Source: Sulfuricurvum sp.
Lineage (GTDB): Bacteria > Campylobacterota > Campylobacteria > Campylobacterales > Sulfurimonadaceae
Direction of reading: 5' to 3'
Length of the DNA: 64,000 nucleotides
Assembly: GCA_030696775.1 (NCBI GenBank)
Contig: JAUYRN010000026.1
Location: 1-64,000, forward strand
Positions 197-29,069 of this stretch are shown here, one piece after another. Numbering within the stretch: the stretch's first letter is position 1; each line of letters begins with the position of its first letter. The translations under genes were made by a program, and so were the position numbers. Under the pieces are notes generated by a model that worked only from the letters and a program-made list of their open reading frames with translations, had not been told where the DNA came from and did not search any database.

Positions 197-228
197 ATTA
201 TAATAAAGGTAAATAGCGATGAAATAGC
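197..228 (-). promoter_or_regulatory. Regulon box promoter 1 (partial response-regulator gene)
   Basis: Read on the minus strand this is GCTATTT-CATC-GCTATTT, then 8 bp, then TATAAT. Heptamer spacing is 4 bp and the second heptamer ends 8 bp before the -10 box, as at ten other promoters in the window. There is no good -35 hexamer, which fits activator dependence. It drives the gene that leaves the window at position 1. Confidence 0.85.
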
Positions 229-245
229 AAGATAACACAAAGCAA

Positions 246-258
246 GAGGCTAAGCCTC
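246..258 (-). terminator. Weak stem-loop after the SoxYZ-like gene
   Basis: GAGGC-TAA-GCCTC lies 35 bp after the stop of the SoxYZ-like gene on the minus strand and is followed by a T-rich stretch. The stem is only 5 bp, so it is a weak candidate terminator for the three-gene cytochrome operon. Confidence 0.4.
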
Positions 259-292
259 ACACGCTAGCTTCTTTTTGGAGTATTTATTACGG

Positions 293-1045
293 TTATTGAT
301 CTACTTGAGTTGAAATACGATACTCATTTGCATCACTGTCTTTTAATTCGATAGTGTAAGTTCCATCACCGCCCATTGTCTCAAAGGTCATCGTTGGGTT
401 TTGACTGATTGCAGAAGTGAGCTCCATGCTTGCCAGGCGTTCTTTTTTACTATACAGTTCGAGGTGTTTGATGTAAAAAGGATTCGTTCCAAACATCAAA
501 CCCGTTTCCATAGGATGAAAAATAGAAAATTTGATGCTATAGGCTTTGTTCTTTCGTACTGTTTGGCTTTTATGCTTACCTAAAAGAAGCGCGAATTTTT
601 TACTTTCTTCTGGGGAGTTTGTTGAACATCCACCGCCAAAACTTTTTATGTTAGCACTGCCGATGTGCCACAAGCCGTTTGCATCTTCTACGAGCACTCT
701 AATCGGTGTTTCTTGTGCAACACGAATACTAAAAGAAAAAATGGCTTTAAGATTTAACAGTTTGATGTCCATAATCTCAGGAATAAGGTTTAAATCAGCA
801 AATGCAATTACTCTTTTCACATCTTTTATTTTTGTTGCATCGATATATATGGGTACTTGTGCAGGGTTGTCTGCAAATTTTGGGACATTAATCGTAATGT
901 TTGCATCGTCGAAACAATAGGGTGCACCATGGAGCGTATTTTGAAGTAGATCGTCGAAAGTCGGTGAATAAATCGGATTTTTTGCTTGAGAATTGACACT
1001 CAACAGTAGAATAAAGAGCAAGGATTTGTATAGGATCGAGGACAT
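293..1045 (-). CDS. Quinoprotein dehydrogenase-associated SoxYZ-like carrier protein
   Basis: A 250-residue secreted protein with a signal peptide (residues 1-21, cut near SQA). Residues about 30-145 resemble SoxY and contain the carrier-like GGGCS motif with Cys140; residues about 155-245 resemble SoxZ. This fused SoxYZ form is known beside PQQ alcohol dehydrogenases rather than in thiosulfate oxidation; its chemical role is not established. I chose the ATG at 1045 because AAGGAG precedes it at normal spacing, while the longer reading from 1093 overlaps the upstream gene. It is the third gene of the cytochrome c550 / binding protein / SoxYZ operon, starting about 10 bp after the previous stop. 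Confidence 0.85.
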   Translation of the reverse strand: MSSILYKSLLFILLLSVNSQAKNPIYSPTFDDLLQNTLHGAPYCFDDANITINVPKFADNPAQVPIYIDATKIKDVKRVIAFADLNLIPEIMDIKLLNLKAIFSFSIRVAQETPIRVLVEDANGLWHIGSANIKSFGGGCSTNSPEESKKFALLLGKHKSQTVRKNKAYSIKFSIFHPMETGLMFGTNPFYIKHLELYSKKERLASMELTSAISQNPTMTFETMGGDGTYTIELKDSDANEYRISTQVDQ

Positions 1046-1055
1046 AGGTTCTCCT

Positions 1056-1919
1056 TTAAGGGCCATAGGAAATAGGTTTAGTATAGGTAACATGATAGGT
1101 GTCGAATATTTTTTGTAATGTGTTCTCTTTATGCAGTTTTGTAATCAGTCCATCGATATGATAGCTTAACTCACGAGCATCTGTTCGAACAGCAATACCA
1201 ATATCCCAGATGGATTTTATTCCCTGAACGTCATTGGTCATGTAGTATTGAACCTGATTCTTTTTGTAATCAAGTAAAAATTCCAGTTGAGATTTTAATC
1301 CGGCGAGAGCATCGAGTTTACCAGCTTTAAAATCTTTTACGGCATCTTCAAATTTAGCGTAGCGCTTGACATTTTTTCGTAATAACCCTCTGTTTTGCAT
1401 TGAGAGATGTTTGTCGGGTAGCGTGTCTAATTCCACACCAATGGTTTTGTAGGCAAATATACCCAGAGTATTAACTGTCGGTATAGAATCTTTGTGGGTT
1501 ACTATAACCCATTTTTCTGCATGGTACGGTGATTTTATTATCACCATGTCCGTTTGGAGTGCTCCGGTGGTAGCGTCTGTCTGTCTCATATAGTCGTAAT
1601 CGTAAGGGACTCTGAGCATGACATCAGCTCGCGTTTTATGGACGGGATTACCCTTCCATATCACATTTCTAAGATCATCATCAAGATTCTCGTCTGAGTC
1701 GGTAAAGTACCATTTTGGTTTAACGTTGAGTGATTTAGCAATTTTCTTACCAATATCCACATCAATCCCTTTGGCTTCACCATTCTCGATATACGAGTAG
1801 GGTGGAAAGTCATTGTACACAGCAATGACGATTTCCCCGCTCGTTTGTATGTCTTCAATACTCCTTGCATGCGAGCAAGTGTAAAGGAATAGACTGATGA
1901 CGATCGTTAGAAATTTCAT
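1056..1919 (-). CDS. Quinoprotein dehydrogenase-associated periplasmic binding protein (family 3, MoxJ/XoxJ-like)
   Basis: A 287-residue protein with a signal peptide (residues 1-18) and a family-3 solute-binding fold: an N-terminal VYNDFPPYSY segment, then GIDVDIGKKIA, and a second lobe ending in a KLHKENTLQKIF helix. Proteins of this type (XoxJ/MoxJ and relatives) accompany PQQ dehydrogenases. They are thought to help activate the enzyme or pass on its cofactors rather than feed a classical importer, and no permease is paired with this gene. It starts one base after the stop of the cytochrome gene, so it is translated from the same mRNA. The closest functional name cannot be decided from sequence alone. 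Confidence 0.85.
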   Translation of the reverse strand: MKFLTIVISLFLYTCSHARSIEDIQTSGEIVIAVYNDFPPYSYIENGEAKGIDVDIGKKIAKSLNVKPKWYFTDSDENLDDDLRNVIWKGNPVHKTRADVMLRVPYDYDYMRQTDATTGALQTDMVIIKSPYHAEKWVIVTHKDSIPTVNTLGIFAYKTIGVELDTLPDKHLSMQNRGLLRKNVKRYAKFEDAVKDFKAGKLDALAGLKSQLEFLLDYKKNQVQYYMTNDVQGIKSIWDIGIAVRTDARELSYHIDGLITKLHKENTLQKIFDTYHVTYTKPISYGP

Positions 1920-1920
1920 G

Positions 1921-2334
1921 TTAATATTGAACTCTAACGGAATGTAAATAAGAACGAATTGCCCACATGCCCTCTTGATTCATAATACCTTCGAATTTAG
2001 GCATGTAGACATTGCCATTACGTACGGCACCTCCACGGATTCTCTCCATAAACCATTGGTCACCTTCTGTGCCTCCATCAAGGTAGCGTAGATCCGGTGC
2101 AACACCGCCTGATACTGCATCCAATCCATGACAACGAGCACAGTTTTCTGCATAAGCATGGTTACCGATTTCAATGGCTTTTGCATTTCCGACATAGGGA
2201 TTCGCATCTAACCAAGCTTTTCCTATCGGGGCTAAACCTTTAGTATCTACTGGTTGTGGGGTTACGTTTCCGTGACTCAATAATAGTGTTGCTGATAGCA
2301 CTGCTATCGCTCCAAGTGTATGTGATTTTTTCAT
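1921..2334 (-). CDS. pedF: Cytochrome c550, PedF type
   Basis: A 137-residue secreted c-type cytochrome. A signal peptide covers about residues 1-23, the haem motif CARCH is at 65-69, and a Met in the VYMPKF segment is the likely axial ligand. The layout matches the PedF/ExaB group of cytochromes that take electrons from PQQ alcohol dehydrogenases and pass them to the respiratory chain. Here it should serve the dehydrogenase at 9607, although the two genes are 7 kb apart in separate operons; both have the same regulon box, which ties them together. It is first in its operon, with the promoter at 2367-2398. Confidence 0.85.
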   Translation of the reverse strand: MKKSHTLGAIAVLSATLLLSHGNVTPQPVDTKGLAPIGKAWLDANPYVGNAKAIEIGNHAYAENCARCHGLDAVSGGVAPDLRYLDGGTEGDQWFMERIRGGAVRNGNVYMPKFEGIMNQEGMWAIRSYLHSVRVQY

Positions 2335-2366
2335 ACTCAGTCCTTTTAATGTTTTGTGATTTGGAA

Positions 2367-2398
2367 ATTATAAAGTATAAAAATAGCCTGATAATAGC
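2367..2398 (-). promoter_or_regulatory. Regulon box promoter 2 (cytochrome c550 operon)
   Basis: Minus strand: GCTATTA-TCAG-GCTATTT, 8 bp, TATAAT. Spacing is identical to the other boxes. It lies 33 bp upstream of the cytochrome start and is divergent from the box at 2420-2451. Confidence 0.88.
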
Positions 2399-2419
2399 GT
2401 TTACTAAGAAATTATTATC

Positions 2420-2451
2420 GCTATATTCAAGCTATAAATCTGTACTAGAAT
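2420..2451 (+). promoter_or_regulatory. Regulon box promoter 3 (NitT/TauT-type ABC operon)
   Basis: GCTATAT-TCAA-GCTATAA, 8 bp, TAGAAT. Same 4-bp and 8-bp spacings as the others, upstream of the start at 2490. Confidence 0.85.
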
Positions 2452-2489
2452 AACAACTGACTCGATTTGAAATCAGGAGAATTATTCTT

Positions 2490-3461
2490 ATGAAAATCTT
2501 TATTTTGTTTGTACTCTCTTTAACACTGTTATATGGAAGCAATCCGAAACTTCATGTCGGAGTTTTGGCATATGGAACGGTCAACTGGGAATTGATGACC
2601 ATTAAATCACGCGGGCTGGATACGAAATACGGGTTTGATCTTGAGATTAAAGAATTAGCCTCCAAAGATGGTGTGGCAGTCGCTTTTCAAGCGAATAGCG
2701 TGGATATGATCGTTAATGACTGGGTTTGGGTGAATCGACAAAATTCCTCTAAACTTTCACTTTATTTTTATCCTTATTCCAAAGCATCTGGAGGGATTTA
2801 TACTAATGACCCTCGTTACCGTACTCTTAGTGATTTAAAGGGCAAAAAACTGGGGGTTGCCGGAGGAGCGATGGATAAAAGCTGGTTGCTCTACCGAGCG
2901 TATGCCATGCAAAAACTAGGGATTGATTTAACCACCTATTGTGAAATCGTCTTTGCGGCTCCTCCCATTTTGAATGCGAAATTATTGGATGGAAGTTTGG
3001 ATGCTGTACTCAATTTTTGGCATTACAATGTCCTGTTGGATGAAAAAGGGATGACCCCGATTTCATCAGTTCAAGCAGTGTTAGCCAGCTTTGGAATTGA
3101 TAACCGTGATATCCCCTTTACGGGATGGGTATTTAAGCGTCCATTTGCAACGGACAATAAGAATGTCATCAACGGTTTTTTACAAGCTTCACAAGAGGCC
3201 AATAAAATACTGAAAGAAGATGAGGCAGCATGGAATGCTTTACGACCCTTTATGCATGTTAAAGACGATGCGGCTTTTGAAGCGTTAAAAAAAGGATATC
3301 GCAATGGAATTCCTAAAAAGTTTACTCAAAATGAAATAAATGGAATTGAAAAAATATATACACTTTTGGAAAAAACGGCCGGTAAAAGTTTAGTCGGTGA
3401 CGCCAAGTCTTTCGATAAAAAGATGTTTTGGCCGTTTCCACTAAATTCTATACGGAAATAG
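2490..3461 (+). CDS. ABC transporter substrate-binding protein, NitT/TauT (SsuA-like) family
   Basis: A 323-residue secreted protein with a signal peptide (about residues 1-16). The fold markers of the NMT1/SsuA-like family are visible: an early VGVLAYGTVNWELM strand-loop, the DLKGKKLGVAGGAMD segment, and the LDGSLDAVLNFW segment near residue 170. It should deliver a small solute to the permease and ATPase encoded next. The substrate is unknown; control by the alcohol-oxidation box suggests a cofactor, metal or substrate linked to quinoprotein metabolism. AGGAG precedes the ATG. First gene of a four-gene operon that ends with a DUF411 protein. Confidence 0.8.
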   Translation: MKIFILFVLSLTLLYGSNPKLHVGVLAYGTVNWELMTIKSRGLDTKYGFDLEIKELASKDGVAVAFQANSVDMIVNDWVWVNRQNSSKLSLYFYPYSKASGGIYTNDPRYRTLSDLKGKKLGVAGGAMDKSWLLYRAYAMQKLGIDLTTYCEIVFAAPPILNAKLLDGSLDAVLNFWHYNVLLDEKGMTPISSVQAVLASFGIDNRDIPFTGWVFKRPFATDNKNVINGFLQASQEANKILKEDEAAWNALRPFMHVKDDAAFEALKKGYRNGIPKKFTQNEINGIEKIYTLLEKTAGKSLVGDAKSFDKKMFWPFPLNSIRK

Positions 3462-3463
3462 TG

Positions 3464-4204: not shown

Positions 4205-4205
4205 T

Positions 4206-6937: not shown

Positions 6938-6969
6938 ATTATAGGAAAAGTAAATAGCGTGTATATAGC
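6938..6969 (-). promoter_or_regulatory. Regulon box promoter 4 (PedA1-like binding protein, DUF302)
   Basis: Minus strand: GCTATAT-ACAC-GCTATTT, 8 bp, TATAAT. Its outer heptamer shares two bases (GC) with the outer heptamer of the divergent box at 6968, so the two sites form one continuous array. Confidence 0.88.
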
Positions 6970-6999
6970 TATTTTCGAGCTATTTATATTTTGTATAAT
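6968..6999 (+). promoter_or_regulatory. Regulon box promoter 5 (beta-propeller/ABC operon)
   Basis: GCTATTT-TCGA-GCTATTT, 8 bp, TATAAT. Perfect match to the consensus, 28 bp upstream of the chosen start at 7028. Confidence 0.9.
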
Positions 7000-9518: not shown

Positions 9519-9550
9519 GCTAATTTCAGGCTATTTTTCTTATGTATACT
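9519..9550 (+). promoter_or_regulatory. Regulon box promoter 6 (PQQ alcohol dehydrogenase and pqq genes)
   Basis: GCTAATT-TCAG-GCTATTT, 8 bp, TATACT. Outer heptamer has one change, spacings are exact. It gives a leader of about 50 bases before the dehydrogenase start. Confidence 0.88.
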
Positions 9551-9606: not shown

Positions 9607-11400
9607 ATGATAAAGAGTAAAATCCTGACTGGTACGATTGCAGTAACACTTGCTGCATTTCTTACGGGTTGTGCTTCTCATAGTACAGGTCTTACTAATA
9701 ATGTAAAAAAAGATGCAGTGAAAGCTTCGTTTGCACCCGTAACGTATAACGACATCGCTAATGATGCAGTAACTGAAGGGGATGTTGTAACGTATGGTTT
9801 AGGTCAAAAAGGACAACGTTACTCTACATTGAAAGAAATCAATAAAGAGTCAATTAAAGATCTCGTTCCTGTATGGAATTTCAGCTTCGGCGGTGAAAAA
9901 CAAAGAGGACAAGAAACACAGCCGTTGGTCAAAGACGGTGTTATGTATGTGACTGCATCGTATTCACGTATCTATGCTCTTGATGTTGCTACAGGACGAG
10001 AAATATGGAGTTATGAAGCAAAACTTCCAGACGGGATCTTGCCTTGTTGTGATGTTATTAACAGAGGTGCAGCACTTTTTGATGACCTCGTAATCTTCGG
10101 AACATTGGACGCTAAACTTGTAGCACTTGACCGAGCAACGGGAAAAGTAAAATGGAAGAAAACTATTGCAGAATATAAAGACGGCTATTCATTTACGGCA
10201 GCACCTCTTATCGTTAAAGGTTTACTTGTAACAGGTTTATCAGGTGGAGAATTCGGTGTTGTCGGTAAAGTTGAAGCCCGTGACCCAAAAACCGGAGAGA
10301 TTGTGTGGAGCAGACCAACGGTTGAGGGGCATATGGGTTACCTTAACGGTAAAGAAAATGGTATCAGCGGTACCTTAAATGCAACTTGGGAAGGCGATCA
10401 GTGGGAACACGGTGGAGCAGCTCCATGGAATGGTGTCACTTTTGACGCAGATACCAATCTCATTTATGTACCAACTGGAAATCCATCTCCGTGGAACTCA
10501 CATGAGCGCGCAGGAAACAATTTCTACTCGGCATCCAGAGTCGCTATCGATGCTGATACCGGAAAAATTGTTTGGCATTACCAAACAACTCCAAATGACG
10601 GATGGGATTTTGACGGTGCTTCTGAGTTAGTATTGTTTGACTATAAAGATGCTTCAGGTAAAACGGTCAAAGCCGGTGCAACTGCCGATAAAAATGGTTT
10701 CTTCTATGTACTAAACCGTGAAGATGGTAAATTTATTAGCGGTGTGCCGTTTGTTGACAATATTACATGGGCAAAAGGTATCGATAAAGATGGTAAACCT
10801 ATCATCAATGAAGAGAACCGCCCGGGAGTACCGGTCAATGGTGAAAAAGGTAAAACTGTTTTCTCTGTTCCGTCATTCTTAGGTGGTAAAAACTGGAATC
10901 CAATGGCGTACTCTCAAAATACAGGTCTGTTTTACATTCCTTCAAATGAATGGGGTATGGATATCTGGAATCAACCGGTAACGTATAAAAAAGGCGCTGC
11001 GTACATGGGAGCTGGATTTACCATCAAACCTGTACATGAAGATCACATCGGTGCTCTTAAAGCGATCGATCCTGTAACGGGCAAGATTAAATGGGTGCAT
11101 GAGAACAAAGCACCTTTATGGGGCGGAGTTCTTGCAACTGCGGGCGGTATCGTATTTACAGGTACACCTGAGGGTGAACTACTCGGTTTAGATGACGAAA
11201 CAGGAAAAGTATTGTATTCGTTCCAAGTAGGTTCTGGAATCGTTGGATCACCGATTACTTGGGAACAAGACGGTGAACAATATGTTTCAGTCGTATCAGG
11301 CTGGGGCGGAGCTGTACCATTGTGGGGTGGAGAAGTTGCGAAATCAATTAAACACATTTCACAAGGCGGTACGGTACACGTATTCAAATTACATAAATAA
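9607..11400 (+). CDS. PQQ-dependent alcohol dehydrogenase, lanthanide-type signature, predicted lipoprotein
   Basis: A 597-residue quinoprotein propeller that should oxidise primary alcohols in the periplasm and pass electrons to the cytochrome c550. Visible features: vicinal Cys147-Cys148 in PCCD, propeller docking repeats of the TGxxxW type, probable metal ligands Glu223 and Asn292, and catalytic Asp334 in WDFD. The second Asp, Asp336, is the extra ligand that separates lanthanide-dependent enzymes (XoxF, PedH) from calcium enzymes. The N-terminus ends in a lipobox, LTGC with Cys22, so the enzyme should be lipid-anchored, which is unusual for this family. AGGAGAG precedes the ATG. Substrate range cannot be read from sequence; the aldehyde dehydrogenase nearby suggests ethanol or other short alcohols. 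Confidence 0.9.
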
Positions 11401-16189: not shown

Positions 16190-18094
16190 ATGAAAACATA
16201 CACCTTCGAGTATAAAGATTTAGACCGACAAGATTGGTTAAATGAGATTAAAAATCATACTCAAACTTTAGTACAAATTTTTTGCGGAAATGGTCAAGAG
16301 CCCTTACGCGAGGCATCCGCTCAGATCAAAAAAAGACTTCCTCTCAGTGTCATTATCGGCACAACTACAGATGGAGAAATCAACAACAGCAATATTCTTA
16401 CCAACTCCACGATTATCGCCATTTCTACCTTTGCCATGTCCGAAGTGACCAGTGCTTATGTTGATAGTGCAGACTGTTTTCAAAACGGTGTTGAGCTTGC
16501 AAAAAAGCTTGTTAAACGCGATACTAAATTACTGATACTTTTTACAGACGGTTCTACCAGCAACGGCGAAGCATTTTTAAAGGGTATTGAATCTGTTGAC
16601 AATCAGGTCATTGTGTGTGGCGGGATGGCTGGTGATAACGGTCAATTTGTGCAAACATACATCTGTGAAAACGATAATATTTTAGAGCATGGTGCTGTGG
16701 GTGTTGCCCTGAATTCAAAGATGCTCAGTGTGTACAATAATTATAAATTTGACTGGTCTCCGATTGGTATCGAACACACTATCGATGAGATTACAAATAA
16801 CAGAGTTTATAAGATATCCGGAATGCCGGCTGTCGAATTTTACGAAAAATATTTAGGAACAGAAGTAGCAAAAGCTCTTCCTAAAACGGGGATAGAATTT
16901 CCATTGATTATGGATAAAAATGGTTTTAAAGTTGCACGTGCAGTCATTGCCAAACATGATGATGGCAGTATGAGTTTTGCCGGGAATCTAAAGGTTGGCG
17001 ATAAGGTCCGTTTGGGCTTCGGAAATGCAGAAATGATCATAAAGCAATCGTTTGACTCCTCTTATCAAGCACCTTGTAAAAATATGCAAAGCTTTTTTGT
17101 CTATTCCTGTATGGCAAGAAGACGGTATATGCCAAGTCTGATCAACATAGAAATAGATCCTTTCGTAAAAAGTGCGCCGACGGTAGGATTTTTTTCTTAT
17201 GCGGAATTTTATCATCATAAAGGGCATAATGAACTTCTTAATCAGACGTTCACCGTCATCGGACTGTGTGAAGCTGAGTGCGTAGAGTGCCTTTCACTTG
17301 AGAATAAGACAAAAGAAAATCCCTTAGAAAAGGATGAATATGCGATTACCATCGGCGCACTTGCGCATCTTATTGAACAGTCAGCAAACGATTATGAAGA
17401 GCAGAAAAAGAGGCTCGAAGAAGAACAGCGATATTCCCAAAGTTTATTAAAATCGCAAGATCTTTTTATTAAATATGCCGTACATGAAACCAATACTCCT
17501 TTGAGTATTATGATGTGTAATATCGAACTTTATGAGGTGGAATTTGGTAAAAATCTCTACCTTTCCAATATCGAAGCTGCGATGAAAAATGTGTGTACTA
17601 TTTATGATGATCTATCGTATTTGCTCATTAATAAGACGATTGAATACACGAAGCATACCATCGATTTAGTGGACTATGTGCGAAGCCGGATAGATTTTTT
17701 TAATATTGTGGCTAAAAAAAGGAATGTCAGTTTTATTTTTAGAAGTCCAGAAAAAGAATTTATAATCTATTTTAATGAAGCACAACTACAACGGATAATT
17801 GACAACAATCTTACCAATGCCATAAAATATACCAAAGAAAATGAACCAATCTATATTGTGATCGAACATAATCAGATCACCTGTAAAGTTATCTTTAAAA
17901 GTAAGTCTTCCGAGATAGAAAATCCACAAAAGATATTTGATCAATTTTACAGAGAGAGTTCCCAACAAGAAGGTTTTGGGCTGGGGCTAAATCTTGTAAA
18001 AGAGATATGTAACAATGAGAATGTCGCTTTTGAATTGCACTCTACGAAACAAGAGACTTCTTTTACCTATGAATTCAAGGAGGCTTACCTTTGA
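16190..18094 (+). CDS. FIST-domain sensor histidine kinase
   Basis: A 634-residue soluble kinase without membrane segments. Residues about 30-200 are a FIST_N domain and about 215-365 a FIST_C domain, followed by a coiled coil (about 390-425), a histidine box HETNTPLS with His432, and an ATPase domain with the N box near NNLTNAIKY and a GFGLGL glycine box. FIST domains sense small ligands; in Pseudomonas aeruginosa the FIST protein NosP sits beside the kinase ErcS'/NahK, a member of the ethanol-oxidation regulatory network, so this looks like both functions in one chain. It overlaps the OmpR-type regulator gene and is its likely partner. Confidence 0.85.
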   Translation: MKTYTFEYKDLDRQDWLNEIKNHTQTLVQIFCGNGQEPLREASAQIKKRLPLSVIIGTTTDGEINNSNILTNSTIIAISTFAMSEVTSAYVDSADCFQNGVELAKKLVKRDTKLLILFTDGSTSNGEAFLKGIESVDNQVIVCGGMAGDNGQFVQTYICENDNILEHGAVGVALNSKMLSVYNNYKFDWSPIGIEHTIDEITNNRVYKISGMPAVEFYEKYLGTEVAKALPKTGIEFPLIMDKNGFKVARAVIAKHDDGSMSFAGNLKVGDKVRLGFGNAEMIIKQSFDSSYQAPCKNMQSFFVYSCMARRRYMPSLINIEIDPFVKSAPTVGFFSYAEFYHHKGHNELLNQTFTVIGLCEAECVECLSLENKTKENPLEKDEYAITIGALAHLIEQSANDYEEQKKRLEEEQRYSQSLLKSQDLFIKYAVHETNTPLSIMMCNIELYEVEFGKNLYLSNIEAAMKNVCTIYDDLSYLLINKTIEYTKHTIDLVDYVRSRIDFFNIVAKKRNVSFIFRSPEKEFIIYFNEAQLQRIIDNNLTNAIKYTKENEPIYIVIEHNQITCKVIFKSKSSEIENPQKIFDQFYRESSQQEGFGLGLNLVKEICNNENVAFELHSTKQETSFTYEFKEAYL

Positions 18095-18750
18095 AAATAT
18101 TATTAGTCGAAGACGATGTTATGCTGGGAGAAGCTATATCGAAATATATAGAGGCTACCGGTCATGTTGTTGAGTTGGTTAAAGACGGAACACGAGCATT
18201 GCAGATGATTCATGATTGCAATTTTGATCTTCTGCTTCTGGATATTAATATTCCAGGTTTAGATGGTTTGACTTTATTAGAGACAACTCATAATGAAAAA
18301 ATACAAATTCCTACTATTTTTATCTCTGCGCTTATCGATATAGAAGATATTTCAAGAGCCTTCAATCTAGGTTGTTATGATTATTTGAAAAAGCCTTTTC
18401 ATCTAAAAGAGTTAAGCCTAAGAATCGATAAGATACTGCAATCCAGACAAGTCCCCCAATCCCACAAAAGACTGTCAAAATCGTACAGTTTTGACAGTGA
18501 AACGATGACACTGCTGTTCAATAATGAACCGCATATTTTACCAAAAAGACAACTTCAAATCATAGAACTTTTGTCCCAGAATAGAAGCAGAATCGTCACG
18601 TATGACATGTTCAGAGACTATGTATGGAACGATGATATGATCGATAATGCTACCATCAGGGCAGAATTGAACCGAATTAAAAATGTGTTAAAAGAAGACA
18701 TGATCATTAATATTCGATCGATTGGCTACATGGTCGAACGACCAAAATAA
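18091..18750 (+). CDS. OmpR/PhoB-family response regulator
   Basis: A 219-residue protein: receiver domain (1-115) with acidic pair Asp8-Asp9, phospho-acceptor Asp51 in LLLLDINIPG and the conserved KKPF Lys; then a winged-helix output domain (about 125-217). The start is TTG at 18091, overlapping the kinase stop by four bases. OmpR/PhoB-family proteins bind paired direct repeats spaced 11 bp apart, the exact layout of the eleven boxes in this window, so it is the best local candidate for the regulon activator. The partial regulator at position 1 is the alternative. Confidence 0.9.
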   Translation: MKILLVEDDVMLGEAISKYIEATGHVVELVKDGTRALQMIHDCNFDLLLLDINIPGLDGLTLLETTHNEKIQIPTIFISALIDIEDISRAFNLGCYDYLKKPFHLKELSLRIDKILQSRQVPQSHKRLSKSYSFDSETMTLLFNNEPHILPKRQLQIIELLSQNRSRIVTYDMFRDYVWNDDMIDNATIRAELNRIKNVLKEDMIINIRSIGYMVERPK

Positions 18751-18786: not shown

Positions 18787-20787
18787 TCATCCATTTAATA
18801 TATCCAATGTTTTTTCATATACGTGAAGTTTATTAAGCTCATTATTGAGTTCTTGGGTTAAAAGAGATTGAGAGCGAAGTTCACCGGAAATGCTTTGGCT
18901 CTCATGCGCAAGCTCTTCCATCTCATTAGAGAGTTGCAAACTTTTTGATGACATTGTTGTAAGACCTGCGCTCACATTGTTCATCGTTTCACTGATTCCT
19001 TCCACTGCTTGAATAATCGTATTAACGGATACATTCGTTTCTGAGAGACTCTTTTGGGTTCGCTCTGCCAGTTTACGGACTTCATCAGCAACCACAGCAA
19101 ATCCACGGCCGTGTTCTCCCGCACGTGCCGCTTCGATTGCTGCATTTAGCGCAAGAAGATTGGTCTGATTGGCGATATCGGAAATAACGCTTAGTACCGT
19201 ACGTATTTCACGAACATTGTCCGTAAGATTGTCTATATCCGACGAAAGATTGGTATTATCATCACTGCTTTTTTCCATGAGGGTTGAAAAAATGGAAAAC
19301 TGATCTTTTACAGAGGTGAGTTGACTGCCTATTGTATCGATAGAGTCAACAGCGTTATGGATGGAATTTCCTATACTGTCGATGACGGGCATACTCTCTT
19401 TCATCTGACTCAACATCGCTTTATTGATGTTGTCGATCATTCTTTGACGATTAATTTTACGCAAGAGAAAATAGCTTTTAAATCCGGCGTATTTTTGTAC
19501 AAAACGGTCGATGTATTCATCATTGAACGAGTCGTTATCGATTCGGTAAAAAAAGATAGCGGTCAACGTTTGGTTGATATTAACACCCAAAAGTTCACCG
19601 AATGTTGAAAAGCCTGCTACGGGAATATCTTGAAATGTACGAAGGCTATTGAGCTCATTGGAATTAAATAATCGTCGTAAAATACAGTCGTTTAAGATGG
19701 CTCCGATTGCTTTAGGTTTGTTGCGGCTGAATTCAGCATAATTATCAGAAGTTGTTTGGACGAAGTTCGTTTTTTCTAGCAGAATAAGTTCTTCACCGGC
19801 TTCTATATCGCAGTAAAAATGGATTGCACCGGCAGTCGTATCGATCGAAGCAATGGAACGAACATAGATTTCGTCGTCGATTTCTATTCCAAACGTATAA
19901 TTTACAAGCTTTCGATCAAGCTGTTGAGGCGAGCATGAAAAATGAGTCGTTAATGCTTCGATAATATTGATACGAGAGTTTGTTTTGGTGTCCATAAAAG
20001 CGGTAATAACCCTTTTGATCGGGTCAGCGGCCAAAACGGTAAATTTTGTAGCAGTTTTTCGGAAGTTTTGACTTTTGAAAATTCCGAATCGATAGGACGG
20101 TGTAAATTTGATAAAGGTGATGAGGGCATGATGTCGTAATGCGCGAGTTCCATCAAAAATATAGGTATCTTTAAAGTCAAGTTTACCGCCAGCGCTCCCA
20201 CCGACGAGTAAGCAGGGGAAGCTTCCAACATTATAAACGGCTTCCATAAAGAAACTTTCACTGCCCGAAAGCCCATCGATAAGTGTGTAGCCAAGGGTAT
20301 CTTCATGGTTCATTTTAAACGGTACACGGATTTTTTTAAGCTCATCAGAAATAGCCGAAACTCTGGCTGCTGCATTTTTGGAGCTTAATCCTATATCTTC
20401 GCTTTTAAGAGGGATAGAAGCAACATAAACATCACTAATCATCTCTTTTGAAAACAGCATCAAAATGATATTATCGCCTGTGCCTGCATCGGTTTGTGAG
20501 TAGAGATTGGAAATTTTGGTCGACTTGTCAAAGCTGCAAAGCTCTCCTGCGGTAGTTGAGAGAATAAGAGTGACATCATTTGGTAAAGCTTGTTTGAGCC
20601 GTGAAGATACTAAAGCAAAATCAAGGGCAGGAGAGACAAAACCGATAACTACTTTAGGCGTAATATGGAGACGTTCTAATTTACCGTTACTAATGTCACT
20701 CTCTTTTAATCGTATTGAGATCATAGGCATTTCGACTTGTTCACTCATTTCGCGTCGCATCGCAGCTGATTTAAAAAATTCAAACAT
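18787..20787 (-). CDS. Soluble chemoreceptor with FIST sensor domain
   Basis: About 666 residues with no membrane segment. The N-terminal part (about 30-380) is a FIST_N/FIST_C pair, for example [13 protein letters not shown] and the LVGGSAGG segment; the C-terminal part (about 450-660) is a methyl-accepting chemotaxis domain with the conserved hairpin tip [19 protein letters not shown] begin it at 20787, where AAAGGAAT precedes the ATG; a longer in-frame start at 20817 lacks a ribosome site. It has a regulon box at 20842-20873, so taxis receptor and alcohol-oxidation genes are switched on together. It may sense the same ligand as the FIST kinase. Confidence 0.88.
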
Positions 20788-20841
20788 ACTATTCCTTTGG
20801 TGACTTTTCTTGAACACATAACAGGTTCATCTATAACTTCA

Positions 20842-20873
20842 AGTATATAAAATTAATATAGCATCAAAATAGC
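20842..20873 (-). promoter_or_regulatory. Regulon box promoter 7 (FIST chemoreceptor)
   Basis: Minus strand: GCTATTT-TGAT-GCTATAT, 8 bp, TATACT. Exact spacing; 55 bp upstream of the chemoreceptor start. Confidence 0.87.
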
Positions 20874-20936: not shown

Positions 20937-20968
20937 GCTATTTTCAAGCTATAGACATAGTATAGAGT
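20937..20968 (+). promoter_or_regulatory. Regulon box promoter 8 (aldehyde dehydrogenase)
   Basis: GCTATTT-TCAA-GCTATAG, 8 bp, TAGAGT. The -10 is the weakest of the set; an overlapping TATAGA two bases earlier is an alternative. Confidence 0.8.
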
Positions 20969-21040: not shown

Positions 21041-22537
21041 ATGACATACGTAAAACCAACGTACAAACCTCAATATGAAAATTTCATTGGTGGCGAGTGG
21101 GTAGCTCCAATAAGTGGAGAATATTTTGATAATATTTCTCCTGTTGATGGTGAAGTTCTAACAAGAATTCCAAGATCAAATGAAGCAGATGTTGAGCTGG
21201 CTATTCAAGCAGCAAATAAAGCTTTTCAATCCTACAAACATACTTCTGTTGTTGAGAGAAGTTTGATGCTCAACAAAGTAGCAGATGCAATTGAGGCAAA
21301 TTTAGAAGCTTTGGCGATTGCAGAGACGTTAGATAACGGCAAAACGATCAGAGAAACCTTATATGCGGATGTTCCTTTAGTGGTTGATCACTTTAGATAT
21401 TTTGCTTCTGTCATCAGAGCTGAGTCCGGTACTGTTGCGGATATCGATGAAAATACGATTTCACAAGAAATTTTTGAGCCTTATGGTGTTGTTGCTCAGA
21501 TTATTCCTTGGAATTTTCCATTGTTGATGGCTGCATGGAAATTAGCACCAGCATTAGCAGCAGGTAACTGTATCGTGATGAAACCGGCATCTGCTACTCC
21601 TATGTCGATTTTACTCTTAATGGAAACTATCCAAGATGTTCTTCCAAAAGGTACTATCAATATTATCAATGGAGCAGGCGGAAAAATCGGTAAATACATC
21701 TCAACGCATCCGGATGTTAAAAAAGTCGGATTTACCGGTGAGACGACAACAGGTCAGTTGATCATGCAATATGCAACAGAGAATATCATTCCTACGACAT
21801 TGGAACTTGGCGGTAAATCTCCAAATATCTTCTTTGAATCGATTATGGCTGCTGATGATGAATTCTTTGACAAAGCGATTGAAGGGTTGATCCTGTTCGC
21901 ATTTAACTCAGGAGAAGTCTGTACGTGTCCTTCACGCGCATTAATCCAAGAATCAATCTATGAGCCGTTTATGAAACGTGTTTTAGAGCGAATGGAAGCG
22001 ATCAAATTAGGCAATCCTTTGGATGTAGCCAACATGATGGGTGCACAATGTTCACTTAATCAAAAAGAAAAGATTCTTGAATACATCAACATCGGTAAAG
22101 AAGAGGGTGCAGAGTGCCTAATCGGTGGAGAAGTGTATGAATCTGAGACGTATCCAAACGGATTTTATATCAAACCGACCGTATTCAAAGGTCATAATAA
22201 AATGAGAATCTTCCAAGAAGAGATTTTTGGACCTGTTCTTGCCGTTACAACTTTCAAAGATGAAGATGAAGCGTTAGCAATAGCAAATGACTCGATCTAT
22301 GGATTAGGTTCTGGGGTATGGTCAAGAGATGCTCATCAATTGCATAAAATCAGCCGTGGAATCGAAGCAGGCCGTGTTTGGGTTAACTGTTATCATGCAT
22401 ACCCATCTCATGCGTCATTTGGCGGATATAAAAAATCTGGTCTCGGTAGAGAGACGCACATGATGATGCTAAATTCTTACAGACACACGAAAAATATTCT
22501 AACTTCTTACAACAAAAGTGCTATGGGATTTTTTTAA
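21041..22537 (+). CDS. NAD-dependent aldehyde dehydrogenase, ExaC/AldB type
   Basis: A 498-residue cytoplasmic aldehyde dehydrogenase. Cofactor and catalytic motifs are intact: IPWNFPLLMAAWKLAPAL, the ELGGKSPNIF glutamate, and catalytic Cys294 in GEVCTCPSRA, the form seen in acetaldehyde dehydrogenases of ethanol-oxidation loci. It should convert aldehyde that enters the cytoplasm to the acid and make NADH. AAAGGAAT precedes the ATG. A DUF779 gene follows, a common partner of this subfamily, and the promoter carries the regulon box. Confidence 0.92.
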   Translation: MTYVKPTYKPQYENFIGGEWVAPISGEYFDNISPVDGEVLTRIPRSNEADVELAIQAANKAFQSYKHTSVVERSLMLNKVADAIEANLEALAIAETLDNGKTIRETLYADVPLVVDHFRYFASVIRAESGTVADIDENTISQEIFEPYGVVAQIIPWNFPLLMAAWKLAPALAAGNCIVMKPASATPMSILLLMETIQDVLPKGTINIINGAGGKIGKYISTHPDVKKVGFTGETTTGQLIMQYATENIIPTTLELGGKSPNIFFESIMAADDEFFDKAIEGLILFAFNSGEVCTCPSRALIQESIYEPFMKRVLERMEAIKLGNPLDVANMMGAQCSLNQKEKILEYINIGKEEGAECLIGGEVYESETYPNGFYIKPTVFKGHNKMRIFQEEIFGPVLAVTTFKDEDEALAIANDSIYGLGSGVWSRDAHQLHKISRGIEAGRVWVNCYHAYPSHASFGGYKKSGLGRETHMMMLNSYRHTKNILTSYNKSAMGFF

Positions 22538-24583: not shown

Positions 24584-24590
24584 GATAAGC

Positions 24591-26729
24591 CTAACTTATT
24601 TTAATTGGCAGTGAGTGGTATCGTTTTCCGGTTGCATCAAATATGGCATTCGCAACTGCTGGAAAAATAGGAGGAACCGCTGTTTCTCCGATACCGCCGA
24701 TTTTATCTCCAGAATTGACGATGCTTACTTGGATATCAGGAGCATCGGAAATTCGTGTCACTAAATAATCATAAAAGTTGTTTTGTTCTGCTTCACCATT
24801 TTTGATCGTTATTTCGCTGTATTTCGTTGGTGCAAGACCGAAATTGATTCCACTGATCATTTGATTTTCAATGTTAAGAGGATTAATAGCAAATCCGCAA
24901 TCAACACTGCACCATACTTTTAGTACTTTAAAGTCATTTTTTGAGACTTTTACTTTTGCAACTTGCGCCACAATACTGCCAAATGATTTGACGAGTGCAA
25001 CACCATAACCGATATTTTTTTCTTTTTTACGATTTTTCCAATCGGAAATTTTTGCGACATCCTCAAGCAATTTTATGCATCGTAAGTCTTCTAGCATACT
25101 GATTCTATAAGCGATAGGGTCAACACCCGCTTTATATGCCGCTTCATCTACGATCCCCTCCACGAGAGGTGCTGTTTGCGTATGTCCTACCGAACGCCAC
25201 CATAATACGGGAATAGGGGAGCTGGGTGAATGTGCTTGCATATCATGATTGGCAATCGAATAAGGATGATCGGTAAGTCCATCCCATTGCGCCCAATCGA
25301 CACCATCTTTAAATAAAAATCCAAGAATCGTATCTTTTACAACAGGCTGTCCGACGACTTTCGCTTCAAATGCGGTAATGTCACCATGTTTGTTAAGAGC
25401 AACACGGGCTTTATTTTTGTACATCGGACGATAGTTACCCATACGGATGTCATCTTCTCTTGTCCAAAGGGTCATAATTGGCCACGCTTCATTTTTTGCG
25501 TTATACACTGCATCATTGATATAATCGGCGTTTGCTGCAGCTCTGCGTCCAAATCCTCCACCTAAAAAGGTATTGTTATATTCAACCGCCTCAGGTTTCA
25601 GACCCAATATGTCTGCACAAACTTTTTGATAGACCGTTTGTACTTGTCCACCGGTCCACATTTTTGCGCTGTCACCTGTATGATGAACCGTACAATTGAG
25701 AGGTTCCATCGGTGCATGAGCTAAAAATGGGAATTCATAATCTGCGGAAATGATGCTGTGAGCTTCTTTAAAGGCTTTAGCCGTATCCCCATCACGACGC
25801 ATCGAAGCGCCTGGTGTATGTAAAAGAGCATCGTATTCTTTACGTATATCTTTCGTACTGATTTTGGCAAATTCTCCCTTGTCCCATACAACGTCAATAT
25901 AATTAAGCGCCTCTTTTGCCTGGAACCAGTGCTCTGCAATGACAGATATACCGTTAGGGATTTGTTTGATTTTTATAATCCCATTTCGTTTGAGGGCTTT
26001 GGAAGCGTCAAAACTTACGATTTTTGCACCGAAAACGGCAGGGTGTAAAACTGCTGCATATTTGAGATTTTCCATTCTCACATCAACACCGTATTCTGCT
26101 TGTCCCGTCACTTTTGCCCATGCTTCGCTAGGATGTCTTTTCGTAGGTTTTCCTATGAGTGAACAATCTTTAAGTGCTTTCAGCTCAGGATCTTGAGGAA
26201 TACTCATGGTCTTGATATCAGATACCAGATCACCGTAGGTAAATTTATCTCCTGTTTTTAGGTTCATTACCTCGGCATTATGGGTTTTGATATTGGATAG
26301 ATCGGTGTTCCATCTAGCTGCTGCGGCTTTTTTGAGCATTAGGTTTACTGCAGCACCGACTTGACGCATTTCAAGCTGTTTGGTACTGATCGAGGTAGAA
26401 CCTGCTGTCAGCATCCACGGTCCAAAAACCGAGTTATAGACAGGGTCAATACCCGATGCTTTAAAATGAACTGCTTCCCAATGCGCATCCAACTCATCCG
26501 CTATACACATGGCTAGTGCGGTATAGGTTCCCTGACCCATTTCTGCTTGTCCCATAAAAAATGTGATAGTGTTATCAGCATCAATCTTGATAAAGGCATT
26601 CGGCTTTAAACGGTTTGTCTCTTTTGTATCTTCAGCTGCACTTGCTTTTACCGGTAAATAAAATCCAACAATAAATGCACTCGTAACAAGTGCAGTGTTT
26701 TTAAGAAAAGTTCTTCGAGAGAGTTCCAT
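24591..26729 (-). CDS. Molybdenum aldehyde oxidase, large subunit (Tat-exported, IorB-like)
   Basis: A 712-residue xanthine-dehydrogenase-family subunit. The twin-arginine signal SRRTFLKN (residues 4-11) marks folded export. Molybdopterin-binding and catalytic segments are visible: GQAEMGQGTYTAL, LGGGFGRRAAA, and the C-terminal GGIGETAVPP with the catalytic Glu. It resembles isoquinoline-1-oxidoreductase-like and membrane-associated aldehyde dehydrogenases. With the 2Fe-2S subunit it should oxidise aldehyde in the periplasm, next to the PQQ dehydrogenase that makes it. No cytochrome subunit is encoded nearby, so the electron acceptor is not clear; the PedF-type cytochrome is one option. Confidence 0.87.
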   Translation of the reverse strand: MELSRRTFLKNTALVTSAFIVGFYLPVKASAAEDTKETNRLKPNAFIKIDADNTITFFMGQAEMGQGTYTALAMCIADELDAHWEAVHFKASGIDPVYNSVFGPWMLTAGSTSISTKQLEMRQVGAAVNLMLKKAAAARWNTDLSNIKTHNAEVMNLKTGDKFTYGDLVSDIKTMSIPQDPELKALKDCSLIGKPTKRHPSEAWAKVTGQAEYGVDVRMENLKYAAVLHPAVFGAKIVSFDASKALKRNGIIKIKQIPNGISVIAEHWFQAKEALNYIDVVWDKGEFAKISTKDIRKEYDALLHTPGASMRRDGDTAKAFKEAHSIISADYEFPFLAHAPMEPLNCTVHHTGDSAKMWTGGQVQTVYQKVCADILGLKPEAVEYNNTFLGGGFGRRAAANADYINDAVYNAKNEAWPIMTLWTREDDIRMGNYRPMYKNKARVALNKHGDITAFEAKVVGQPVVKDTILGFLFKDGVDWAQWDGLTDHPYSIANHDMQAHSPSSPIPVLWWRSVGHTQTAPLVEGIVDEAAYKAGVDPIAYRISMLEDLRCIKLLEDVAKISDWKNRKKEKNIGYGVALVKSFGSIVAQVAKVKVSKNDFKVLKVWCSVDCGFAINPLNIENQMISGINFGLAPTKYSEITIKNGEAEQNNFYDYLVTRISDAPDIQVSIVNSGDKIGGIGETAVPPIFPAVANAIFDATGKRYHSLPIKIS

Positions 26730-26731
26730 GA

Positions 26732-27187
26732 TTAAGCTCCTGCATTTATTTTTTTAATAGCGTTTTTGATACGGTTATACGTACCGCATCGGCATATATT
26801 GCCATTCATTCCAGCGACGATCTCTTTTTCGCTAGGATTATGATTGGCTTTTAGTAAACCTGTCGCATTCATGATTTGCCCTGACTGACAGTAGCCGCAT
26901 TGAGGAACATCCTCTTCAACCCAAGCTTCTTGCACTTTTTTCAGCAGAGGATCCGTTTTATTCGCGATGGTCATTATCTCTTTATCGCCGATTTCTTTTA
27001 AATTTGTTGCACAGCTTCTTACCGCTTTTCCGTCTAATAAAACGGTACAGGCACCGCATTGAGCAACACCGCATCCATATTTGGTTCCGGTTAAATTTAG
27101 GTACTCTCTAAGTACCCACAATAAAGGTGTTTCTTCATCAACAGTAACATCATAGGTAGTACCGTCAATTTTTAATTTAGTGGTCAT
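26732..27187 (-). CDS. 2Fe-2S subunit of the molybdenum aldehyde oxidase
   Basis: A 151-residue ferredoxin-like subunit. The plant-type 2Fe-2S motif (YGCGVAQCGACTVLLDG) lies near residue 40 and the second cluster motif (CGYCQSGQ ... CRCGTY) near residues 97-135. It has no signal of its own and should be exported by attachment to the Tat-bearing large subunit, as known for this family. First gene of the operon, controlled by the box at 27218-27249. Confidence 0.9.
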   Translation of the reverse strand: MTTKLKIDGTTYDVTVDEETPLLWVLREYLNLTGTKYGCGVAQCGACTVLLDGKAVRSCATNLKEIGDKEIMTIANKTDPLLKKVQEAWVEEDVPQCGYCQSGQIMNATGLLKANHNPSEKEIVAGMNGNICRCGTYNRIKNAIKKINAGA

Positions 27188-27217
27188 GGATATCCTTTTT
27201 AATCTTATCTTTTAGGA

Positions 27218-27249
27218 AGTATATAAAATGTAAATAGCGGTGATATAGC
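27218..27249 (-). promoter_or_regulatory. Regulon box promoter 9 (aldehyde oxidase operon)
   Basis: Minus strand: GCTATAT-CACC-GCTATTT, 8 bp, TATACT. The two heptamers and 4-bp linker are identical to those of box 10. Confidence 0.9.
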
Positions 27250-27383
27250 GATAAATTTGAAACTTTTAGGATGAATAGTAAATTTACAGATAAACCTTTA
27301 ACTATAATTAATTGATATGTAATAAAAATTCCTTTCATTAATATATATTATAAGCATATTGGCAGTTAAATTTGAGTTATATC

Positions 27384-27415
27384 GCTATATCACCGCTATT
27401 TATATTCTATATACT
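27384..27415 (+). promoter_or_regulatory. Regulon box promoter 10 (porin 1)
   Basis: GCTATAT-CACC-GCTATTT, 8 bp, TATACT. It gives a leader of about 80 bases to the porin start at 27503. The rest of the 315-bp gap between the divergent genes is AT-rich without further visible signals. Confidence 0.9.
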
Positions 27416-27502
27416 TATCCCAAGGTTTTGAATTGTATTAATAATACCTATATATATTAGGTCTTATTTATAATGAAAATCAATAGGATTGAAGGAAATG
27501 AA

Positions 27503-28780
27503 ATGAAAAAAGTAGTAGGAATGAGTCTAGTGACAGCAGTATTGCTGGGAGCAAGTGCATTCGCAGTTGACAATGTAAAGGTAAGCGGTGATGCTAAGCT
27601 TTACTACTATACGGATGATAAAAATACAGGTGATCTTTTTAGTAAAACAACAAGTGTAGCAGATACTGCTCTTCGTCTTGGCGTCACTGGAAATCTTGTT
27701 AACCATGTCTCTTTTGGTGTAACCGGATATGCGGTCAGTACCCTTGGTCTTGAAAATAATCTTGTCAGTAATACGTGGTCAAGCGCTCACACTTCTACTA
27801 ATCCAGGTGATGTTTCTGATGAAGCATGGATTGGTGAATTATGGATTGCTGCAACGTATGGTAAAACTACGGTTAAAGCAGGACGTATGCTACTCGATTC
27901 ACCACTATCATTTAGTGAAACATGGTCGGTTACTCCAAACAGCTATGAAGCTTTTGTTCTGATCAATCAAGATATTCCTGATACAACTTTGGTTGGTGTT
28001 TATGCAGGCCATAGCAATGGTGTAAATGCTGTTGGTTATACGGATGGTCCAGGCGGAGTAGCTGATAATACTTCTGGTCTTGGACTTGATGGTATTGTAG
28101 GTGCAGGTGGAAAATTCGGAACCCATGGCGCAAAAGGTGCTAATGTAGCTGGTATTATTAATAACTCCTACAAACCATTGACTGCACAAGCTTGGTATTA
28201 CAATGTTGTGAATGCTGCGGATGCTTTTTGGTTGCAAGGTGATGTTAATTGCCAATTGCTAAAAGGTCTAAAATTGGGTGCTCAATATACCGAAATTAGT
28301 CCAAAAGGCATTTATGCAGGTGTTCATGACTCTAAAGGTTATGCATTTAAAGTTGGATATGAAGGTATCGAGAATCTTAAAGTATCTGCTGCGTATTCTG
28401 ATGTAGATAAAGACAGTGTCTTTAAAGTTTCTAACCTTGCAACCAATAACACTGTAAAATCTCAATCAAAATTGTATACGGAAGCATTTTGGAACTATGG
28501 ATATGTAGGTGCTCCAGATGCGAAAACTGTTAATTTAACTGCTGAATATAAGCTGGATATTGCTAAATTTGGTGCTTATTATACAAATGTAAATAATGGC
28601 ATTTTTGCTACGCTCGCAGCACCGAGAGTCGGGGTTGATATGCAAGAACTTGCATTGACTGCAACAAAATCTTATGGTGCATTAGATACGACTTTGGCAT
28701 ACGTTTCCACAGATGCTGATGACCAAAACAACGGATCACAATCCAATTCTATCCAAGCACGTTTGACTCTTAATTTTTAA
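27503..28780 (+). CDS. Outer-membrane porin 1
   Basis: About 425 residues: a signal peptide (about 1-21, cut after AFA), then alternating hydrophobic/polar beta-strands and a C-terminal aromatic end (ARLTLNF, final Phe) typical of outer-membrane barrels. It resembles the OprD-like porins of Campylobacterota. GAAGGAAATGA lies before the ATG at 27503, better placed than the longer in-frame start at 27473. The regulon box suggests it admits alcohol, PQQ or a metal complex; that is inference. Confidence 0.8.
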   Translation: MKKVVGMSLVTAVLLGASAFAVDNVKVSGDAKLYYYTDDKNTGDLFSKTTSVADTALRLGVTGNLVNHVSFGVTGYAVSTLGLENNLVSNTWSSAHTSTNPGDVSDEAWIGELWIAATYGKTTVKAGRMLLDSPLSFSETWSVTPNSYEAFVLINQDIPDTTLVGVYAGHSNGVNAVGYTDGPGGVADNTSGLGLDGIVGAGGKFGTHGAKGANVAGIINNSYKPLTAQAWYYNVVNAADAFWLQGDVNCQLLKGLKLGAQYTEISPKGIYAGVHDSKGYAFKVGYEGIENLKVSAAYSDVDKDSVFKVSNLATNNTVKSQSKLYTEAFWNYGYVGAPDAKTVNLTAEYKLDIAKFGAYYTNVNNGIFATLAAPRVGVDMQELALTATKSYGALDTTLAYVSTDADDQNNGSQSNSIQARLTLNF

Positions 28781-28796
28781 GAATCATTGTGTTAGT

Positions 28797-28816
28797 CTCA
28801 TCCCTTCGGGGTTGAG
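28797..28816 (+). terminator. Terminator after porin 1
   Basis: CTCATCCC-TTCG-GGGTTGAG: an 8-bp stem with one mismatch and a stable TTCG loop, followed by a T-rich stretch, 17 bp after the porin stop. Confidence 0.7.
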
Positions 28817-28898
28817 TTCTCCTTTTATAAAATTTTTGAACCTGTAGTGGAGTTTCGTCGACGTCAGTAAGGTGATGAAAAGTAAAAAAAAAAGACTG

Positions 28899-28920
28899 TT
28901 ACCGTAATTTTTTACGGTAA
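28899..28920. repeat. Short inverted repeat between the porin genes
   Basis: TTACCGTAA-TTTT-TTACGGTAA, preceded by a run of ten A. As RNA from the minus strand it would be a hairpin followed shortly by a U run, so it may block antisense transcription. The 321-bp gap also holds the porin 1 terminator and box 11; nothing else is evident. Confidence 0.5.
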
Positions 28921-29037
28921 TTTCGATCAGGACTTGAATTTCCACTAGGTTCTCTTTCTTTCGTAACACTCTTAAAATTAAAATTACACTTCTCCTACAA
29001 TCACTAGATTTTTTCATTAACTTTAACTGTTTTGGTA

Positions 29038-29069
29038 GCTATTTTAGCGCTATTTGAATTCTATATAAT
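29038..29069 (+). promoter_or_regulatory. Regulon box promoter 11 (porin 2)
   Basis: GCTATTT-TAGC-GCTATTT, 8 bp, TATAAT. Perfect consensus, 33 bp upstream of the porin start. Confidence 0.9.

Follow-up and report, generated by a model that had tools for sequence, protein, structure and literature searches.

Activators of the PhoB/OmpR family bind 11-bp direct repeats that replace the −35 element, as in the Pho box. In Sulfurospirillum, the regulator PceP has been found by gel shift to bind CTATA repeats at 11-bp steps overlapping the −35 region, with the consensus CTATW-N17-CTATW; these sites accompany genes induced by tetrachloroethene (PCE), and the authors argue against repression (accessible part of PMC7755780). 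The ped/exa genes of Pseudomonas, which serve alcohol oxidation dependent on pyrroloquinoline quinone (PQQ), are instead run by local LuxR-type activators (AgmR/ErbR, PedR2/ExaE) and hybrid kinases (accessible part of PMC12997753). Here we analyzed a stretch of 64,000 nucleotides from Sulfuricurvum sp. (contig JAUYRN010000026.1, positions 1 to 64,000; the window), in which eleven promoters of a PQQ alcohol-oxidation gene cluster share a rigid layout of two GCTATNT boxes and a −10 hexamer. Very probably these sites are bound by the OmpR-type regulator encoded at 18091, which would be phosphorylated by the cytoplasmic FIST kinase encoded at 16190 and would activate an alcohol-oxidation regulon.

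The regulon is new, and its type of site is related to the published PceP site. The first-pass annotation had known of no described site with this sequence, a view that the CTATA repeats at 11-bp steps overturn. As far as the accessible part of PMC7755780 describes it, the PceP/PceS system likewise has a Campylobacterota OmpR-type regulator and repeats at 11-bp steps over the −35 region, at several promoters of one metabolic region. It differs in that PceP is 26–31% identical to its best-matching regulators of our set and falls outside the 18091 clade, although its branch is long and its placement unsure. Its CTATW-N17-CTATW consensus has a 22-bp period (for the pceP gene, L237, a triple repeat of CCTATA), whereas the sites studied here are GCTATWT pairs with N8 to the −10, and PceS is described as a membrane kinase rather than a FIST kinase. 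The window sites, with two boxes 11 bp apart, do not show the 22-bp period: no third GCTAT was found 11 bp further upstream at any of the eleven, and CTATA at +22 lies within the −10 region at only a few of them (27384, 29038). Using a published primer, we located the pceP gene in 5/5 Sulfurospirillum-group genomes, four of which have the CCTATA triple repeat. The Pho box shares with our system a regulator made of a receiver and a winged helix, and differs in box letters and regulated process.

The likeness to Pseudomonas lies in a homologous gene set comprising the PQQ alcohol dehydrogenase, PedF, PedC and other ATP-binding cassette (ABC) parts, pqq genes, a porin and a NosP protein (PMC12997753, accessible part). 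In contrast to that system, the window has an OmpR-type regulator and a FIST region fused to a kinase; in the portion of the window's open reading frames (ORFs) scanned, no local LuxR-type activator was found, the local regulator consisting of receiver and Trans_reg_C domains. The model for NosP, a FIST protein that senses nitric oxide, scores 73 bits against the kinase and 118 bits against the cluster's chemoreceptor, both far under its 450-bit cut-off, and neither protein is assigned to NosP. Among the papers listed in our searches of open-access literature, which asked about FIST kinases alongside alcohol or aldehyde genes and about PQQ or alcohol dehydrogenases in Sulfuricurvum, Arcobacter and Epsilonproteobacteria, we found no description of this regulon; this body of text takes in few of the subscription papers.

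A fixed promoter layout in the alcohol-oxidation cluster

The literal 32-mer scored was GCTATNTNNNNGCTATNTNNNNNNNNTATANT, which represents the layout GCTATNT-N4-GCTATNT-N8-TATANT. Coordinates and strands of all eleven sites agree with those in the first-pass annotation:

197..228, minus strand: box pair and −10, exact; upstream of the gene for a partial Trans_reg_C protein (1-166, minus strand); identical 32-mer in G012:C71
2367..2398, minus strand: box pair and −10, one mismatch; upstream of the pedF-moxJ-like-SoxYZ-like operon; also in G010, G011, G029 and G035
2420..2451, plus strand: box pair and weak −10, two mismatches; upstream of an SsuA-like/ABC permease/ATPase operon
6938..6969, minus strand: box pair and −10, exact; upstream of the PQQ_ABC_bind gene
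6968..6999, plus strand: box pair and −10, exact; upstream of the beta-propeller/PQQ_ABC_ATP-like/PedC operon; back to back with 6938
9519..9550, plus strand: box pair and −10, one mismatch; upstream of PQQ alcohol dehydrogenase-pqqBCDE; layout recurs in 9/9 dehydrogenase promoters of Arcobacteraceae
20842..20873, minus strand: box pair and −10, exact; upstream of the FIST-domain chemoreceptor gene
20937..20968, plus strand: box pair and weak −10, two mismatches; upstream of ExaC-like aldehyde dehydrogenase-DUF779; kept in G010, G011, G035 and G015
27218..27249, minus strand: box pair and −10, exact; upstream of Mo/Fe-S oxidoreductase (IorA/IorB-like)-XdhC-MobA-like genes
27384..27415, plus strand: box pair and −10, exact; upstream of porin 1
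29038..29069, plus strand: box pair and −10, exact; upstream of porin 2

The N4 and N8 spacings are constant in 11/11 sites, and the linkers and spacers vary, both as first claimed; the 11 bases upstream of the sites vary too. The description of the boxes as GCTATNT twice holds literally for the seven exact sites, while the other four differ at one or two letters. Both sites with two mismatches have weaker −10 hexamers (TAGAAT, TAGAGT). GCTAT-N6-GCTAT is present in ten sites, the exception being 9519 with GCTAA. From the end of the −10 to the start codon on the same strand there are 17–72 bases (54 to the ATG at site 20842).

The layout is real. In a scan of the full 2.55-Mb genome, all seven exact matches fall inside the first 29.1 kb of the contig, and the random exact matches elsewhere that would have undermined the pattern are absent. 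Allowing up to two mismatches gives 14 matches, 12 of them in the cluster; the other two, on C35, lie inside an ORF or span a start codon. Within bases 1–30000 there are 7, 3 and 2 matches at 0, 1 and 2 mismatches (one of the single-mismatch matches, at 29049, is an 11-bp frame-shifted reading of 29038), compared with none at two or fewer and 16 at three mismatches in 100 dinucleotide shuffles of the same bases. At up to three mismatches the reversed-pattern control is commoner in the genome than the pattern itself (26 versus 18), and therefore only matches with two or fewer are informative. Searching with just the 18-base core, again allowing three mismatches, yields scarcely more than chance in the window (88 versus 75 expected) and is uninformative.

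As the first-pass annotation had noted, no full-layout site, even with three mismatches, precedes the copper operon or the sensor operon at 16190 or lies in the island. The part of the window from 32000 to 64000, where GC content drops to 29–34%, likewise has no full-layout match at up to three mismatches. At 38662 and 62075 (both plus strand), this low-GC part has a box pair that differs from the core at two letters, in each case with no −10 at the right spacing.

The genes behind the sites had been described as fitting alcohol oxidation or its sensing, which is the case for 10 of the 11; the exception is site 197, which precedes the partial regulator-like gene. The targets include cytochrome c550 (PedF) along with MoxJ-like and SoxYZ-like proteins, the SsuA-like ABC system, PQQ_ABC_bind, and the beta-propeller/PQQ_ABC_ATP-like/PedC set, followed by the alcohol dehydrogenase with pqqBCDE, the FIST chemoreceptor, the ExaC-like aldehyde dehydrogenase with DUF779, the Mo/Fe-S oxidoreductase gene set and two porins. 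NCBIfam matches above cut-off were obtained for PedF, PedC, PQQ_enz_alc_DH, PqqB, PqqC, PqqD and PqqE; PQQ_ABC_ATP falls slightly under its cut-off (298.7 of 302.25) and MoxJ_2 far under (41.6 of 212.15). The principal enzymes and the receptor are:

9607..11400, plus strand: PQQ-dependent alcohol dehydrogenase (TIGR03075)
18787..20817, minus strand: chemoreceptor with FIST and MCP signal domain matches
21041..22537, plus strand: ExaC-like acetaldehyde dehydrogenase (823 bits, cut-off 900)

Boxes, FIST kinase and regulator in related genomes

Two adjacent genes of the cluster encode the candidate regulatory pair:

16190..18094, plus strand: FIST_N-FIST_C-HATPase sensor kinase, the proposed partner and sensor, from its domains and co-occurrence
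18091..18750, plus strand: OmpR-type response regulator (receiver and winged helix), the proposed box reader, from Pfam matches, clade tree and structure model

The regulator matches PF00072 (receiver) and PF00486 (Trans_reg_C winged helix), and its phospho-acceptor Asp (D51) and active-site Lys (K101) are invariant in 36 aligned regulators. An AlphaFold2 model (mean predicted local distance difference test score 88.7), which served solely to locate the recognition helix, places it at residues 186–199.

Across 41 Sulfuricurvum genomes, the exact layout occurs in seven, five of which are those with the alcohol dehydrogenase; the search for this enzyme took in all but four of the genomes, and for G062, outside that search, a separate dehydrogenase test gave no match. 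The five carry seven (the source genome, G000), five (G035 and G011), four (G010) and three (G029) exact sites. The two others are G033, with two sites at IorA and porin promoters, and G012, with one site before the gene for the protein cut off at position 1 of the window (P0001). The remaining genomes of the genus have 0–6 matches each, all with one or two mismatches, against 0–9 for the reversed control. When the boxes were aligned in relatives with the same cluster, as had been suggested, all 37 orthologous promoter pairs were included in the comparison, with identities of 98.9% in the boxes and 95.5% in the −10, both inflated because the sites were located by pattern, and 66–69% in the upstream flanks. 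The aldehyde dehydrogenase pair of G010, G011 and G035 is found on a separate contig, yet it retains its box. Both porin genes adjoin the PedF operon in three relatives (L034-L035, L037, L045), as opposed to the IorA operon at the opposite end of the cluster in the window, so the boxed units have been rearranged. No orthologue of 18091 was seen in the partly covered genome G029, a result that carries no weight either way.

The kinase gene has a match at 1e-60 in 168 of 398 genomes of the order. In an early set of the 29 best loci, from which the window's own was excluded, a full-layout site at up to three mismatches was found in 26, compared with 18 of 290 Markov shuffles, and 24 of the 26 lie just 5′ of the kinase on the opposite strand. 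The main count was made from the best 80 of 213 relatives found. Kinases of this class make up 72 of these, and the regulator follows the kinase in 70 of the 72, the exceptions (L113 and L166) being at contig ends; 70 loci were used for box counts after exclusion of one with a short upstream region (L104) and one duplicate (L125). A box on the divergent strand is present in 52/70 kinase upstream regions at up to two mismatches and in 38/70 at up to one, while the kinase strand has 7/70 and 1/70, and Markov shuffles 3.4% and 0.2%. Among control FIST proteins without this kinase-regulator pair (seven of eight used; L171, with 25 bases upstream, excluded), the box was found in 0/7 on the divergent strand and 1/7 on their own strand.

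The box accompanies the aldehyde genes transcribed away from the kinase. It is present in 36/36 loci with a divergent aldehyde dehydrogenase and in 12/12 with a divergent gene related to that for the Mo aldehyde oxidoreductase-like protein (907 residues) of G055, but in only 4 of the 22 where neither aldehyde gene was found; two of these four contigs stop just past the box (L110, L115), and the other two (L099, L127) resemble chance. By these counts, box and aldehyde gene occur together, and the aldehyde gene in turn accompanies this kinase-regulator pair. TANNNT stands at a gap of 8 in 32/45 promoters, probably a low figure because a decoy ‘last box’ was picked in some rows, and at the runner-up gap of 10 in 9/45. 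Several promoters have three to six tandem boxes at 11-bp steps. Two Arcobacter-family genomes have six such boxes (L197 621-682, L203 7799-7860) before an ORF of 399 residues, which in L197 has no Pfam match. Of 22 genomes searched in full with GCTATNTTCANGCTATNT, allowing up to two mismatches, the 16 with a near full-length FIST kinase match gave 307 matches versus 92 for the reversed pattern and the other six 54 versus 33; these totals are suggestive and were given no weight.

The dehydrogenase itself was found in 11 of the 398 genomes, two from Sulfuricurvum and nine from Arcobacteraceae (family f9), that of G385 being more distant (60% identity). In all nine Arcobacteraceae PQQ clusters, a FIST kinase and regulator lie within ∼12 kb, and boxes precede several of the same genes as in the window. 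All nine dehydrogenase promoters have the arrangement box-N4-box-N8-−10 with 1–3 core mismatches, the −10 being TATACT in eight and TAGAAT in one. The regulator at 18091 had been proposed as activator; its identification as the predicted box reader gains from these nine clusters, from the company that regulator and kinase keep with the box across families, and from G343. A shared OmpR-type activator of the PQQ alcohol-oxidation regulon, as predicted here, fits the comparative evidence and is supported by it.

Paralogous regulators and a possible letter code

In a tree of 128 regulators, 18091 falls in a clade of 100 rows with 100/100 support, which includes two paralogue groups, RR60 and RRx; P0001 and PceP lie outside it, both on long, unsure branches. 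All three groups of the clade have members beside a box of the same geometry. RR60 in the source genome (G000:C35) is 62% identical to 18091, and the genes around it encode ActP, acetyl-CoA synthetase and a porin, besides three others. This sister two-component pair beside the porin-ActP-Acs acetate operon lies in G000:C35 260000-279999 (L052), and its relatives share the geometry. All 13 oriented RR60 loci (12 distinct) have GCTACGT-type boxes at the same spacing, and 32 of 37 genus genomes have an RR60 match at 59–62%. On the main RRx branch, 12/12 loci have a pair of boxes, with at most two mismatches to the core, ∼70–110 bases 3′ of the regulator gene; the other 4 of the 16 RRx loci (L253-L256) have no box there, and three of them fall among the FIST-group rows as second copies.

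Letters were counted over distinct sites with GCTA-N7-GCTA plus A and T in the −10 required, so letters 1–4 and 12–15 are fixed because the selection pattern demanded them. Letter 5 of the box is C in 22/24 distinct paralogue sites versus 3/47 FIST-associated sites, and letter 6 is G or C in 23/24 versus 0/47. In the alignment, residue 194 of the modeled recognition helix is Asn in 67/70 FIST-group regulators and Ser in 28/28 others; columns 143, 171 and 173 of the DNA-binding half likewise separate the FIST from the RR60 groups. Because these differences are clade-level, we treat the association of residue 194 with the letters as a hypothesis. Tentatively, and with the balance leaning against it, we suggest that roughly a hundred sampled Campylobacterota regulators of one clade may share the grammar GCTA box-N4-GCTA box-N8-−10, with residue 194 (Asn or Ser) setting letters 5–6 (TA/TT versus CG/CC). 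If this were true, the paralogues would have split an ancestral switch into an alcohol/aldehyde regulon with the FIST kinase and an acetate-uptake regulon, and targets would be readable from sequence across the phylum.

Proposed control of the regulon and competing explanations

Under control by 18091, an alcohol- or aldehyde-derived cue would act on the cytoplasmic FIST kinase, which would phosphorylate the regulator, a partnership suggested by gene adjacency. The regulator would then sit as a head-to-tail dimer on two GCTATWT boxes 11 bp apart on one face of the DNA, at about −38 to −21, and would touch or recruit RNA polymerase at promoters in which a −10 is present and a −35 is not evident. 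We propose activation because of the site geometry and the PceP precedent. The predicted outcome is induction of alcohol uptake through porins and ABC systems, of PQQ synthesis along with the PQQ alcohol dehydrogenase, and of cytochrome c550, aldehyde oxidation and the FIST chemoreceptor. In the simplest history, the putative switch would have served aldehyde oxidation first, as it appears to do in many relatives, and boxes would have been placed before the PQQ operons later.

Several results weigh against control by 18091. The box is absent from 18/70 FIST-kinase upstream regions, of which 13 have a core match with at most one mismatch elsewhere in the locus, some of these not promoter-like, and five have none; no aldehyde gene is present there in any of the 18. 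Chance alone would account for about two of the 52 positives, and L099 and L127 appear to be such cases. No box precedes the sensor operon itself, and therefore there is no sign of autoregulation. At the FIST chemoreceptor orthologue of G011, no site was found at up to two mismatches, and G012, where both the box and the P0001 gene are present, gave no match to the alcohol dehydrogenase. The recognition helix of RR60 is nearly the same as that of 18091, so cross-binding is possible.

This last point invites the reading that RR60 reads the window boxes, alone or with 18091, since it is encoded in the same genome and its own boxes share the N4/N8 geometry. We consider this unlikely: the first box of the RR60 sites is GCTACGT in 12/12 distinct cases whereas the window has GCTAT or GCTAA, and RR60 matches are widespread in the genus while the exact layout is confined to seven genomes. 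In addition, a search for RR60 in 13 Arcobacter-family genomes showed that G343 retains a box array with the FIST regulator as the sole clade member (next match 39%), and therefore paralogues are not needed for box retention. Promoters of Campylobacterota often lack a −35 box, and with that element often absent, extra upstream motifs can be over-read, so the motif might have no regulator and be either a dispersed repeat or a common feature of sigma-70 promoters or of promoters in this lineage. We give this hardly any credence given that 7/7 exact genome matches lie in one 29-kb cluster, linkers and flanks differ among sites, and across families the motif keeps company with one regulator pair and its aldehyde genes. 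Protein bound to the boxes, which extend over the −35 region, could obstruct polymerase, so that they might be operators at which 18091 or another factor represses until alcohol relieves it. This is decidedly improbable, with the N8 to the −10 fixed across families, no evident −35 hexamer, and the −35-overlapping PceP sites accompanying PCE-induced genes, for which repression was argued against (PMC7755780, accessible part).

The first-pass annotation had also named the partial regulator at position 1 as a possible activator:

1..166, minus strand: N-terminal piece of protein P0001, cut by the contig end; its G012 relative has Trans_reg_C

That DNA-binding domain and the box before its own gene would favor such a role, but P0001 has no match in the box-sharing genomes G010, G011, G029 (partly covered) and G035, its recognition helix differs, it falls outside the clade on a long, unsure branch, and no receiver domain was found in the G012 relative. 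An activator role for P0001 is therefore very unlikely and not supported; judged from sequence, it is more plausibly a boxed target or a bystander. Among eight genomes searched, its gene is present solely in G000 and G012. A second copy lies at G000:C32:2-166 (98% identical over the 55 residues seen), where no layout site was found; both copies end contigs, probably at an assembly break. In G012, this box and the P0001 gene lie on a 6.8-kb contig (C71; L050) that also encodes a GGDEF/EAL protein and has a SoxYZ-like ORF 96% identical to that of the window over 181 residues.

Control by 18091, if it operates as proposed, would supply PQQ alcohol oxidation in Campylobacterota with a concrete regulator, a binding site and a set of predicted targets. 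How paralogous response regulators may separate their targets can be tested directly through the fixed grammar and the association of residue 194 with letters 5–6. Since LuxR-type activators run the same enzyme set in Pseudomonas, one metabolic module would have come under different control proteins in two lineages.

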